Origin: Phocaeicola abscessus CCUG 55929
GTDB taxonomy: Bacteria; Bacteroidota; Bacteroidia; Bacteroidales; Bacteroidaceae
Assembly (NCBI RefSeq): GCF_000312445.1
Contig: NZ_HE997184.1
Coordinates: 71,346 to 135,345, forward strand
Length of the DNA: 64,000 nucleotides
Direction of reading: 5' to 3'
Shown here piece after piece: positions 25,875 to 56,200 of this stretch. Each line of letters starts with the position of its first letter. Position 1 is the stretch's first letter. The notes under the pieces were generated by a model. It saw nothing but the letters and a program-made list of their open reading frames with translations. It ran no database searches and was not told the origin of the DNA. The position numbers were made by a program, and so were the translations under genes.

Positions 25875-25945
25875 TGGAGTATGGTGTAATGGTAACACTA
25901 CAGATTCTGGTCCTGTCATTCCAGGTTCGAATCCTGGTACTCCAA
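25875..25945 (+). tRNA. tRNA-Gln (anticodon CUG)
   Basis: Folds as a complete cloverleaf of 71 nt: 7-bp acceptor TGGAGTA/TACTCCA, D stem GTGT/ACAC, anticodon loop TTCTGGT giving CTG, T arm CCAGG-TTCGAAT-CCTGG, discriminator A. The anticodon stem has one A-C mismatch next to the loop. CCA is not encoded. Confidence 0.95.
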
Positions 25946-25948
25946 CGA

Positions 25949-25977: not shown

Positions 25978-25996
25978 CGTCCGCTACTTATCCTTT

Positions 25997-26338
25997 GAAG
26001 TTCCGAACCTCTCCAACGACGTTGGACAACCTGAAATTTGACGTTCCGGATCCCGTCGTTTAGGTCCAAGATAGATCCGTTGAGGTTAGGCAACCTCTCC
26101 GTTGAGGTTCGGAACCTCATCGGAGAGGTTGAGTAACCTAAAATTTGACGTTCGGGACGTAGGCGGATAGGTTGTACAACCTATCCGGCGAGGTTTCGGA
26201 CGTCAACGACGGGATAAAGAACCGCGCCGGCGAGGTTTCGGACGTCAACGACGGGATAAAGAACCGCGCCGGCGGGGTTCCGGACGTATCCAGATAGGTT
26301 AGGGAACGTATCCGGATAGGTAGGAGGACGTCATCGGA
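25997..26338. repeat. Modular intergenic repeat array 1 (about 16 units of 20-23 bp)
   Basis: Aligning on the recurrent AACC/ACGT starts gives about sixteen consecutive units, mostly 21 or 22 bp. Typical units are dyads, for example AACCTC-N6-GAGGTT followed by CGG, AACCTA-N6-GAGGTT, or AACCT...ACGTT. One 42-bp pair (units beginning ACGTCAACGACGG and AACCGCGCCGGCG) occurs twice in tandem. The array fills the gap between the tRNA-Gln terminator and the rsfS promoter. It is GC-rich compared with its flanks and has no consistent reading frame. It shares unit variants with the array at 55088-55468. Confidence 0.85.
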
Positions 26339-26378
26339 TTTCTAAAAAATAAAAAAAAAATCGTTTTCCGTCACGATC

Positions 26379-26410
26379 TTTCGTAAAAACGAGAAAACTG
26401 CGTATCTTTG
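26379..26410 (+). promoter_or_regulatory. Promoter of the rsfS-ftsH-cdsA operon
   Basis: TTTC (26379-26382, one mismatch from TTTG), a 20-nt spacer, TATCTTTG (26403-26410). It lies immediately after repeat array 1. Confidence 0.7.
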
Positions 26411-26444: not shown

Positions 26445-26804
26445 ATGAGTGAAACGGAAAAATTAATCAAATCAATCACTGACGGGATTCAAGAGAAAAA
26501 AGGCAAAGGAATTATTATCGCAGATCTGAATGAAATCGACGGAAGTATTGGCGAATACTTCGTGATTTGTCAAGGAAACTCGCCTGCACAAGTCAATGCA
26601 TTGACAGAGTCTGTTTACGAGCAGGTTTTAAAACATACAGGCGATAAACCCACTTCGATCGACGGACTACGGAATGCCCAATGGGTAGGCATGGACTACA
26701 GCAATGTGCTGGTTCATATCTTCCTCCCTGAAATACGCGCTTTCTATGACTTGGAACACCTTTGGGCCGATGCGAAACTCACTCGTATCCCAGACCTGAA
26801 TTGA
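26445..26804 (+). CDS. rsfS: Ribosome silencing factor RsfS
   Basis: A 119-aa protein of the DUF143/Iojap family that binds L14 on the large subunit and blocks subunit joining when nutrients are short. Seen: the conserved SIGEYFVICQGNSPAQVNAL (~35-54) and WVGMDYSNVLVHIF (~85-98). First gene of an operon with ftsH (17-nt gap) and cdsA (11-nt overlap). Length is normal. Confidence 0.93.
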   Translation: MSETEKLIKSITDGIQEKKGKGIIIADLNEIDGSIGEYFVICQGNSPAQVNALTESVYEQVLKHTGDKPTSIDGLRNAQWVGMDYSNVLVHIFLPEIRAFYDLEHLWADAKLTRIPDLN

Positions 26805-53392: not shown

Positions 53393-54901
53393 TTATTCTT
53401 TCACATACTCTGCAAAATCAGTGAGGTGCATATCCCCTTTCCGGAACAAGGTATCATGCATTGCAAATGCAACGGGCAGATTATGCCGCGTATGACCGCC
53501 CTGGGCAATCTTCAGATAATCCCGGAGCAACTTCCTGTAATCGGGATGAGCACAATTTTCGATGATTGCTTCGGCCCGTTGCATAGGGCTCTTCCCTCGC
53601 AAATCGGCTACGCCCTGCTCGGTAATGATAATGTTTACATCGTGCTCCGAATGATCCTGATGACTGACAAAAGGAACGATGGAACTGATAAGACCTCCTT
53701 TCGCCGTAGAAGGGCAGGTAAAGATGCTGATGTAAGCATTGCGCTCAAAGTCGCCGGAACCGCCGATGCCGTTCATCATCTTCGTTCCGCTGATATGCGT
53801 AGAATTCGCATTACCATAGATATCGCATTCTATGGCAGTATTGATGGCAATAACGCCCAATCGGCGAATAACCTCGGGCGAGTTAGAAATTTCACTCGGG
53901 CGAAGCGTCAGGTGATCCTTAAAATAATCCATATTATCGTATACCTGCATCAGGCACTCGTTCGAAACAGTCAGGGAACAGGCCGAAGCATCTTTCACCC
54001 GACCGTTTAACATCATCCCGATCACAGCGTTCTGAATCACCTCGGTATAGATGTTGAAGTCGGGCACATGCTTGTCTTTGCCCAACGCGCCGAGTATGGC
54101 GTTCGCCGTACTGCCTACGCCGCTTTGTAAAGGTAGGAACGAAGCGGGAATGATTCCCCGTTTCATGTCGTCGACCAGAAACTCTGCCGTCAAGTGGCCG
54201 ATCGTATCCGTTACCGGATCGTTATCTTTAAAGGCACGGGCTTCGTCGGGGATGCAGCATTCCACTACGCCGGCAATCTTCTTCGCATCGATCTTCACGT
54301 AAGGCGTACCGATACGATCGCCTACCTTTACGATGGGAATCGGCTGGCGAGAAGGGGGATCGAGCGGTTCGTACACGTCATGGATAAATTTGGCATTGGG
54401 ATTGTGAAACGAATTTAACTCCAAAATAACGTGTTTCGCCAACCGAGCTGCCGTAGGGCTGATTCCTCCGGCTGCCGTCAGATAAGCTTTACAAACACTT
54501 TCTCCTTCCTCGATATCACAGACTTCGAGGATAGCCCAATCCACGGCTCCCATAAAGCCGTAACGAAGCTCTTGAGCCATCTGACTCAAATGAAGATCAT
54601 TGTACGGTATCTCTCCCTTATTGACATACTTGCGGAAGTCTGAATTCGTGGTATACGGCGCGCGATACTTAATCGCATGCGCATTGGCCAAATCTCCATC
54701 CGTACTCTGTCCCGTCGAAGCCCCCGTAAGGATTCCCACCGCAAAAGGGCGCCCCGCCTCGTGTTCCATCTCGGCAATTTTAGCCAGTTCTTTCGTCACA
54801 GCCTTAGCCGTACCGGCCGGCGTAAAACCGCTAAGCGCCAAATTCTCTCCATTTTTGATCAACGATGCAGCCTCAACTGCCGATAAGCGTTTATAAGCCA
54901 T
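53393..54901 (-). CDS. Acetyl-CoA hydrolase / CoA-transferase
   Basis: Cytoplasmic 502-aa enzyme of the succinyl-CoA:acetate CoA-transferase/acetyl-CoA hydrolase family. Seen: N-terminal LALSGFTPAGTAKAV (~21-35), a central block GTPYVKIDAKKIAGVVE (~198-214), the CoA-site motif GIGGSGDFERNAYISIF (~379-395) and IITEQGVADLRGKSP (~434). In fermenting Bacteroidales such enzymes interchange succinyl-, propionyl- and acetyl-CoA during acid production. Which acids are used is not readable. Single gene with its own -7 box and terminator. Confidence 0.9.
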   Translation of the reverse strand: MAYKRLSAVEAASLIKNGENLALSGFTPAGTAKAVTKELAKIAEMEHEAGRPFAVGILTGASTGQSTDGDLANAHAIKYRAPYTTNSDFRKYVNKGEIPYNDLHLSQMAQELRYGFMGAVDWAILEVCDIEEGESVCKAYLTAAGGISPTAARLAKHVILELNSFHNPNAKFIHDVYEPLDPPSRQPIPIVKVGDRIGTPYVKIDAKKIAGVVECCIPDEARAFKDNDPVTDTIGHLTAEFLVDDMKRGIIPASFLPLQSGVGSTANAILGALGKDKHVPDFNIYTEVIQNAVIGMMLNGRVKDASACSLTVSNECLMQVYDNMDYFKDHLTLRPSEISNSPEVIRRLGVIAINTAIECDIYGNANSTHISGTKMMNGIGGSGDFERNAYISIFTCPSTAKGGLISSIVPFVSHQDHSEHDVNIIITEQGVADLRGKSPMQRAEAIIENCAHPDYRKLLRDYLKIAQGGHTRHNLPVAFAMHDTLFRKGDMHLTDFAEYVKE

Positions 54902-54947
54902 ATTTATAAGATTGTTTTAGTAGGTTATTAGTTTATCAGACCGGATG

Positions 54948-54955
54948 CAAAGTTA
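54948..54955 (-). promoter_or_regulatory. -7 box of the CoA-transferase gene
   Basis: Minus-strand TAACTTTG, exact TAnnTTTG, 46 nt upstream of the ATG; a one-mismatch -33 (TCTG) lies 20 nt further up. Confidence 0.6.
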
Positions 54956-55087
54956 TATACTTTTTTCTAAAATCACAGAAAAGTCTCAAATCTATATCAT
55001 GGTTTTCCAATTTGAATGACAATTAAAAAACATAAGATCAGTACCCAGGGGTCTGAACCATCTTCGGATTACTATTACTCTCAAATT

Positions 55088-55468
55088 CTACCGTCGGATA
55101 TGTTGGGCAACCTGAAATTTGACGTTCCGGATCCCGCCGTCGACGTCCAAAATAGAATCGTCTACGTTGAGGAACCTGTCCGTTGACGTTCCGAACCTCG
55201 CCGGAGAGGTTGAGGGACCTCAAATTTGACGTTCCGGACGTAGGCGGATAGGTTGTACAACCTCAAATTTGACGTTCCGGACGTAGACGGATAGGTTGTA
55301 TAACGTATCCGACGGGATAAAGAACCGCGCCGGCGGGGTTCCGGACGTAGACGGATAGGTTAGGGAACGTATCCGGATAGGTTAGGGAACGTGTCCGGAT
55401 AGGTTAGGGAACGTGTCCGGATAGGTTAGGGAACGTGTCCGGATAGGTTGAGGGAGGTATCGATTAGG
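55088..55468. repeat. Modular intergenic repeat array 2 (about 17 units of 17-25 bp)
   Basis: About seventeen units, mostly 21-22 bp. Starts AACCTGAAATTTGACG (55109), AACCTGTCCGTTGACG, AACCTCGCCGGAGAGG and AACCGCGCCGGCGGGG recur with or without small changes in array 1. Positions 55366-55454 form a near-perfect tandem of four 22-bp units beginning AACGTGTCCGGATAGG (first unit AACGTATCC). It fills the gap between the divergent CoA-transferase and yqgE genes. The left edge carries a short minus-strand coding-like tail (VEFESNSNPKMVQTPGY, stop at 55038) that may be a gene relic. Confidence 0.85.
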
Positions 55469-55512
55469 TCGCCCGGCCCGTATCGGAAAGAACTTCCTGA
55501 CGAGGACGAATA

Positions 55513-55543
55513 TTTGCGTCGAATAAATTATAACATATTTTTG
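55513..55543 (+). promoter_or_regulatory. Promoter of yqgE
   Basis: TTTG (55513-55516), a 19-nt spacer, TATTTTTG (55536-55543): exact consensus, directly downstream of repeat array 2. Start point near 55550 rules out the longer ORF start at 55448. Confidence 0.8.
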
Positions 55544-55609
55544 GGAGGTAATGTTTTTTATTTCAAAATACATGTGTATATTAGTAGGGCAATTTTGAGG
55601 AGACTCTCT

Positions 55610-56200
55610 ATGGACATGCAAATCTTTCAAGTCGAAGTAAATAAGGTGGAACCTGTAAAAGGAAAAATCCTTATTTCGTCTCCCTTTCTTCATGACATTC
55701 ATTTCATAAGATCCGTCATCTTATTGATCGAACATAATGAGGAAGGAAGCGTAGGGCTTGTCATGAATAAAGATTTCAAGATGCATATCTATTTGAACGA
55801 CCTCATTCCCGACCTGGCTTATTCGCAACGGATACCGATCTATAAAGGCGGCCCGGTAAGTGCCGATACGCTCTTTTACCTTCATAGGCTGAAAGACTTG
55901 GAAGGCGCCATCGAATTGTCGAACGGTTTATACCTCAACGGCGATTTCGAGGCCGTGAAGAATTACATCCGCGAGGGCGGAGTCACGGAGGGAGTGTTCC
56001 GTTTCTTCACCGGATACGCCGGTTGGGAGAGAGGGCAATTGGAACACGAGATCGAGGAGAACACTTGGGTCGTGGGCTCCGGTTACAGCGAATTGCTCTT
56101 GAGCCTGCACGCCGGACAGTTGTGGAAGAACTGCTTGGACAAGATGGGCGGGCGTTACGCCCTTTGGGCAACCTATCCGCTTTACCCGATTCTCAACTAA
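55610..56200 (+). CDS. yqgE: YqgE/AlgH family protein
   Basis: A 196-aa DUF179 protein of unknown biochemical function. Seen: the family start KGKILISSPFLHDIHFIRSV (~14-33), GLVMNKDF (~46-53), YKGGPVSADTLFYLHR (~81-96), GYAGWERGQLEHEI (~140-153) and the typical C-terminal end KMGGRYALWATYP. Start at 55610 is used because the promoter sits upstream and the extra 54 codons have no family character. It converges on the GNAT gene with a 7-nt gap. Confidence 0.9.
   Translation: MDMQIFQVEVNKVEPVKGKILISSPFLHDIHFIRSVILLIEHNEEGSVGLVMNKDFKMHIYLNDLIPDLAYSQRIPIYKGGPVSADTLFYLHRLKDLEGAIELSNGLYLNGDFEAVKNYIREGGVTEGVFRFFTGYAGWERGQLEHEIEENTWVVGSGYSELLLSLHAGQLWKNCLDKMGGRYALWATYPLYPILN

Follow-up and report, generated by a model that had tools for sequence, protein, structure and literature searches.

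The closest described systems are two kinds of short repeat dispersed through bacterial genomes. In the portions of the published account drawn on here, BrickBuilt elements of Porphyromonas gingivalis are tandem arrays of 23-nt units without spacers, provided with a leader, a tail and IS5-like terminal inverted repeats, and they occupy 19 loci in one strain and 0.44% of the genome (PMC4596501). The same account gives them a narrow host range (P. gingivalis and P. gulae), long predicted hairpins and a varying copy number (PMC4596501). REP, BIME and REPIN sequences, as outlined in the consulted parts of two reports, are short extragenic palindromes in many copies that form clusters of alternating orientation and are associated with RAYT (TnpA_REP) transposases (PMC3733652, PMC6006769).

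Two palindromic tandem arrays, 29 kb apart, were found in the window, by which we mean the whole 64,000-nt stretch of Phocaeicola abscessus DNA that was analysed. Compared by description, these and related arrays of the genome are like BrickBuilt in being built of ~22-nt tandem units without spacers, dispersed between genes and narrow in range, with long predicted hairpins and a copy number that varies, and unlike it in having 21/22-nt units, a two-unit superperiod, no flank inverted repeat and no general leader or tail (PMC4596501, as far as its description goes). With REP and BIME sequences, as those reports outline them, they share palindromic units, many copies (34 dispersed loci) and alternating half-sites, but the units stand head to tail at a fixed 21/22 bp, with 9-29 per array, no Y1_Tnp gene was found, and the dyad-symmetric consensus has arms that do not covary (PMC3733652, PMC6006769), where a REP is a palindrome of 20-40 nt kept as a hairpin. 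Where REPs are outlined as extragenic, the arrays lie between larger ORFs, yet in 18 of the 34 some ORF of 65-247 aa covers over half of the array. Arrays 1 and 2 are probably paralogues, drawn from one family of palindromic tandem arrays that is dispersed in the genome, private to the lineage and of the REP/BIME or BrickBuilt type.

The unit, a consensus of 565 copies, is an 18-nt dyad, RACSTNNNC/GNNNASGTY, followed by a 3-4-nt linker, and its conserved positions are A2 C3 C9/G10 G16 T17. Similar half-sites therefore alternate in orientation about every 10.75 bp. Array 1 lies between tRNA-Gln and rsfS, and array 2 between an acetyl-CoA hydrolase gene and yqgE (Table 1).

Table 1. Positions in the window of the two arrays, their shared units and tandem blocks, and the neighbouring genes
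Feature	Position	Strand	Description
Array 1	25985..26341 (about)	+	16 units, same family as array 2; first unit weak
Array 1, two-unit tandem block	26185..26287	+	42 bp, 2.5 copies, 96% matches
Array 1, right-end run	26282..26339	+	22 bp, 2.6 copies
Array 2	55109..55466	+	16 units and an incomplete last one (18-nt core + 3-4-nt linker; 21/22-bp steps)
Array 2, two-unit tandem block	55183..55304	+	43 bp, 2.8 copies
Array 2, right-end run	55352..55455	+	22 bp, 4.7 copies, 97% matches
Unit AACCTGAAATTTGACGTT	26028 (array 1), 55109 (array 2)		identical 18-nt core
Unit GACGTAGGCGGATAGGTT	26156-26173 (array 1), 55237..55254 (array 2)	+	identical 18-nt core
Unit AACCGCGCCGGCGGGGTT	26262-26279 (array 1), 55323..55340 (array 2)	+	identical 18-nt core
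tRNA-Gln (ctg)	25875..25946	+	upstream of array 1
rsfS (PF02410)	26445..26804	+	downstream of array 1
Acetyl-CoA hydrolase/transferase gene (PF02550, PF13336)	53393..54901	-	other side of array 2
yqgE (PF02622)	55610..56200	+	downstream of array 2

When array 2 was searched against the assembly it comes from, G000 (2.54 Mb in 14 contigs, with 85% completeness), 93 BLAST matches were obtained, which were grouped into 34 loci, arrays 1 and 2 included; because of these matches, the sharing of units between the two arrays is not a matter of chance. The family thus comprises at least 34 arrays of 209-619 nt, about 0.46% of the genome, with 543 units in runs of two or more and 308 distinct cores. 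Among 502 steps between units, the spacing was 21 bp in 262, 22 bp in 238 and 23 or 24 bp in 2. A profile of 98 two-unit stretches matched 143 places and revealed no new locus among the 150 of 1769 candidates that were scored. The arrays are richer in G+C than their flanks (0.54 vs 0.48), and a two-unit superperiod is seen in the identity of units at lag 2 (12.4 of 18) as compared with lag 1 (11.2) and random pairs (10.4). A run of N, an assembly gap, sits at the left end of the array at locus L061, which may therefore be longer. Given the ORF cover in 18 of the 34 arrays, it is a judgement that the family is apparently non-coding, made because a 43-bp superperiod cannot hold a reading frame and because the 10 ORFs tested, of the 18 that cover these arrays, had no family match in Pfam.

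An earlier note on this DNA, made from the letters alone, had claimed that array 2 reuses the units of array 1 in a different order and with different neighbours, and had read this as shuffling, copying or gene conversion of modules. The reuse is borne out, with all three units that it named identical over the 18-nt core in both arrays, and the arrays share a colinear stretch of 162 nt at 86%. The order is not different: the three named units follow one another alike in both arrays, and local alignment at the level of units matches 3-16 of array 1, in order, to 1-13 of array 2 (14/16 and 13/16 units), with a score of 40.4 as compared to a mean of 21.2 and a maximum of 34.1 for order shuffles (0 of 1000 reach the score). 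Outside the alignment are units 1-2 of array 1 and units 14-16 of array 2, the last three belonging to its 22-bp run. The gaps of the alignment, where array 2 has a single additional unit and array 1 has two, lie beside the 43-bp and 42-bp tandem blocks; differences of neighbour do exist, but they are sited at the tandem blocks of both arrays and do not amount to reordering. Module shuffling is therefore unsupported for arrays 1 and 2, since its basis, a different order, is wrong there, while the copying of blocks is evident from the dispersed arrays and the two-unit tandem duplications. The two arrays differ mainly by two-unit tandem duplication and by the 22-bp run at the right end of array 2, and duplication with local tandem growth fits their common order; alignable arrays left by an old duplication are the outcome that the earlier note had set against its own reading.

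Across all 561 pairs of arrays, the order score exceeded all 20 shuffles in 241 (median z 1.4) and did not in 320. Among its 33 possible partners array 1 has its best in array 2, and the best partner of array 2 is the array at L046, with array 1 second. Shared unit order is common across the family, not universal, and elsewhere reordering is possible. The reading in the earlier note, in which units are recombination cassettes undergoing reordering, could draw on the 320 pairs that fall within the range of their shuffles, but in light of the common order of arrays 1 and 2 it is extremely unlikely.

The family was found in a single genome. A match to array 2 was present in 1 of 40 genomes and a match to the array at L060 in 1 of 61 genus genomes, in each case its own only; phage and plasmid records had no match to the family, viral contigs none to one exact core pattern, and the contigs of named relatives none in a pattern scan. 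The best reading is that the family is private to its lineage (1 of 61 genus genomes). Our search of the literature, covering the titles and abstract openings listed, found none that described palindromic arrays of 22 bp from Phocaeicola or Bacteroides, which is not proof of absence.

Such a dispersed family with a minisatellite core, filling about the same share of its genome as the 0.44% given for BrickBuilt in the account cited above (PMC4596501), might be expected to be a non-autonomous transposon (MITE) moved by a resident transposase. This is very unlikely, as the flanks lack what such an element would carry. Left flanks compared with the reverse complement of right flanks scored 7.4, and mismatched flanks 7.5, in 33 of the 34 arrays (the array with N was left out); in 29 sampled arrays of one relative, G041, the values were 8.7 and 9.8 for mismatched flanks, again with no sign of an inverted repeat. 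Only 6 short homologies of 17-41 nt were found among 68 flanks of 200 nt, and there is therefore no general leader or tail. These homologous stretches, just outside the array to the left at L045/L053 and to the right at L036/L045/L055, include a CGATGAACTTCTTTT end. The earlier note had suggested looking for a linked transposase; none emerged with the Y1_Tnp profile (PF01797), which had 0 matches in the 85%-complete source genome and matches in 5 of 14 control genomes. A CRISPR array was also considered and rejected, as the units abut with 3-4-nt linkers and there are no unique spacers.

That the arrays are dispersed, have part of their unit order in common and carry tandem duplications of single units and of two-unit blocks is seen directly. 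As to mechanism and function, we infer that the family would have been amplified in this lineage by whole-array copying through some factor and that arrays would grow by tandem duplication of one- and two-unit blocks, the hairpin-prone DNA of the arrays possibly favouring its own duplication. Its persistence would be chiefly that of a repeat which is parasitic or nearly neutral, and any benefit to the host, such as a transcription boundary or protein docking, would be secondary.

Selection for hairpins in the source-genome family was tried at three levels, that of the single unit, that of arms on either side of a linker and that of units i and i+1 to i+8, and found unsupported at each. Arm complementarity within 308 cores averaged 4.935 of 9 as compared to 4.942 after shuffling, and 4.853 vs 4.984 across linkers, neither indicating covariation. 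Complementarity between units i and i+k (k=1-8) showed no excess, and at lags 1, 2 and 4 it was below shuffled values, probably because unit types alternate. When array 2 was set against its own reverse complement, the strongest register paired 253 nt at 58% (z 12.0, the next 9.3); other arrays had either one prominent register or several alike. The single strand of array 2 folds far better than its shuffles (z -7.7 as RNA, -7.5 as DNA), low fold energy being what such repeats give by themselves.

These folds would suit structured RNA acting as a bidirectional transcription boundary, in which transcripts of the arrays would form long hairpins, and these would terminate transcription or shield 3' ends. 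The gaps holding the 34 arrays are 14 convergent, 12 tandem and 8 divergent, as judged from crude ORF calls (ORFs of at least 90 aa, those overlapping an array by >120 nt left out), and 30 neighbouring gaps of 50 nt or more at the same loci are 7 convergent, 19 tandem and 4 divergent. The convergent excess is weak, however, and only 6 of 26 sampled arrays in G041 lie in convergent gaps. With no covariation in the source-genome family, and with Rfam models over the 64-kb window yielding only two tRNAs at gathering score, we regard a transcription boundary as quite unlikely.

The earlier note also held that both arrays end just upstream of a promoter, of rsfS and of yqgE. Both arrays do lie upstream of the gene, and TAnnTTTG boxes, which we take to be the Bacteroides -7 motif, occur at 26403 (about 60-80 nt past array 1) and 55536 (about 70-90 nt past array 2), but a sigma-70 scan of 54900-55700 gave no plus-strand site between array 2 and yqgE. 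Association with promoters was rejected as a rule of the family, whose 34 arrays are spread over convergent, tandem and divergent gaps; because 14 of them are in convergent gaps, promoter proximity is a feature of arrays 1 and 2 and not of the family.

Comparison of the two gene neighbourhoods with relatives showed rsfS-ftsH to be kept in 29 of 29 fetched loci, with a DUF349 gene near rsfS in 11, and yqgE to be accompanied by the downstream orf219 in 11 of 11 loci and by orf157 in 10. The acetyl-CoA hydrolase gene was near yqgE in none of these 11 within the fetched flank of up to 1500 nt. A search with YqgE gave four distant MAG loci at 47-51% identity. The tRNA-Gln is on the same strand as rsfS here; beside rsfS in relatives it is on the opposite strand in 14 of 16 and was not found in 2, and the gap holding array 1 has therefore probably been rearranged. 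In 3 of 29 loci (L064, L073, L087) the 1500 nt before rsfS hold arrays with a period of 18 to 22, none of them of the source-genome family; such arrays were seen upstream of yqgE in 0 of 11 loci, two of which have only 293-351 nt of flank. The array at L064, about 300-420 nt before the rsfS start codon of G041, is of the G041 type, with a 22-bp period and other letters, and the gap that holds it is the one that holds array 1 in the source genome. As G041 is dense in arrays, this may be coincidence.

A different account of the dyad design is that arrays are coated by a dimeric DNA-binding protein (an insulator, recombinase or nucleoid protein), which would dock at half-sites that fall on one helix face every ~10.75 bp, so that recognition letters co-evolve separately in each lineage and spacing is fixed. 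In addition to the conserved dyad positions, this would accord with the use of the same arm words in both orientations: 79% of right arms are in the left-arm vocabulary as compared to 35% after column shuffling, an excess that is inflated because column shuffling ignores the shared descent of words. No candidate protein emerged from the one profile searched, PF01797, and we consider protein docking rather unlikely.

A period close to that of the source-genome family recurs in some relatives. Twenty stretches of 20 kb each were sampled from G011 and G041, and 2-40 kb each from other relatives in the genus and order. In these and the window, 53 intergenic tandem arrays were found, of which 39 have a period of 20-23 and 5 more a period of 42-44; no intergenic array was seen in small samples of 21 relatives. 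Period alone would favour protein docking, but G041 supplies 28 of the 39 arrays, G011 6 and the window 2, and G002, G017 and G025 have one each. The consensus units of the 39 exceed their shuffles in palindromic character (p<0.05 in 18, Fisher 3e-15), as compared to 5 at p<0.05 among 33 other arrays (Fisher 0.32), though the combined Fisher p overstates independence because the same families recur among the arrays of a genome. ATGAN10TCATNCGN, the family of G041, has 422 matches in one genome and 3 in another out of 61, and its reversed control had two matches, in G073. G041 is very rich in 22-bp palindromic arrays, with 28 intergenic in 400 kb (examples L128-L147). Repeats of 21 bp of the TTTTTAAAAAAGCTC type are alike in G011 and G016 (L109:15462, L158:19588) and are perhaps another shared family. 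A ~22-bp period in unrelated families is a hint of shared constraint, which a purely parasitic account leaves unexplained.

One further family was followed in sister species. The pattern TCACN4GTGA at 22-bp spacing, with up to one mismatch, is present in 27 of 61 genomes, and the reversed-pattern control in 0 of 61; it has 0 matches in the source genome, and one exact four-unit pattern had no match in viral contigs. In G011 and G059, 37 of 39 arrays (L253-L291) consist of exactly four units, 78 nt in length. Like the source-genome family, these arrays are dispersed and have dyad units with a ~22-bp period; unlike it, they have other letters, a fixed number of four units in those 37, flanking inverted repeats and complementarity between units. 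In 25 non-redundant elements the centres of units 1 and 2 are complementary at 64% vs 36% (z 5.9) and those of 3 and 4 with z 3.1; weaker values were obtained for 1:3 (z 2.8) and 1:4 (z 2.3), 0.0 for 2:3 and at most 1.1 within a unit, and pairing extends to the 9 flanking nt (z 4.2). With G011 alone and 2000 shuffles, only the pairs 1:2 (1 shuffle) and 1:3 (38) are prominent, and 3:4 (170) and 1:4 (638) are not.

An outer stem with two hairpins accounts for this pairing with a covariation of 0.312 vs 0.169 shuffled (0 of 500) in 31 elements, some of them orthologous, and slid versions of the model reach at most 0.136. A nested-rod fold was rejected, its covariation of 0.261 being lower than 0.312. 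The covariation would speak for an RNA boundary in the sister family, but G-T and A-C mismatches are equal (92 vs 91), and there is therefore no sign of a favoured strand. The 11 matches that Rfam gave on 14 four-unit loci were without exception to miRNA-precursor models and fell short of the gathering score (best E 2.5e-7); they are taken as the generic signal of long hairpins. Sister orthologues also weigh against the boundary: for the two-hairpin model, compensatory double changes number 0 among 61 changed pairs, with 2 for the nested rod, 1 for 1:3+2:4 and 0 within units (in these counts the inverted pair L284/L256 was read directly). With compensatory changes nearly absent, inter-unit complementarity may therefore reflect the copying of units and not selection of a fold; copying of a unit from the complement of another, or slow decay, may explain it as well as fold selection does.

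The orthologues were 14 pairs of G011 and G059 arrays, found by their flanks. Thirteen keep place, order and orientation, which further weakens the idea of reordered cassettes; the fourteenth, L284/L256, would lend that idea some support, as its core is inverted in place between unchanged flanks (direct 0.76, inverted 0.92). With this pair read inverted, differences number 11/448 in arms, 55/224 in centres and 29/420 in linkers, as compared to 154/1752 at fourfold-degenerate sites in nearby genes. Relative to those sites, centres are faster (p 1e-10), arms slower (p 6e-7) and linkers alike (p 0.24), with centres changing about 2.5-2.9 times faster; 42/192 remain when the two most divergent pairs are removed. 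An earlier estimate from 5 of 7 array groups, which left out one group out of register and one with an unalignable flank, gave 0/152 for arms and 23/76 for centres and is replaced by the 14-pair estimate. Slow arms would be expected of protein docking, but the arms were the search pattern, and their conservation is partly ascertained because the arrays were found by them.

Conserved arms, fast centres and inversion in place are what would be expected if something opens, cuts or re-templates unit centres. We tentatively raise, as possible though doubtful, a genus-wide system of palindromic arrays in which a ~22-bp period (two helical turns) and the dyad persist, the letters turn over by lineage and a factor acts at unit centres. 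In such a system the four-unit element has the look of two hairpins enclosed by an outer stem, and the arrays of the source genome would be that lineage's own longer version.

Beyond the relation of arrays 1 and 2, for which membership in a lineage-private family remains the favoured reading, the most interesting result is a period that recurs with changing letters, together with a sister family whose centres evolve fast. If it is spacing and not sequence that congeners share, this would point toward a constraint, physical or imposed by a protein, to which searches by sequence are blind, and such arrays would look private to a species and be set aside as repeats without relation to one another. 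Because the arrays of the four-unit family are few, seldom move and can readily be deleted, the role of palindromic repeat clusters in gut Bacteroidales becomes testable.
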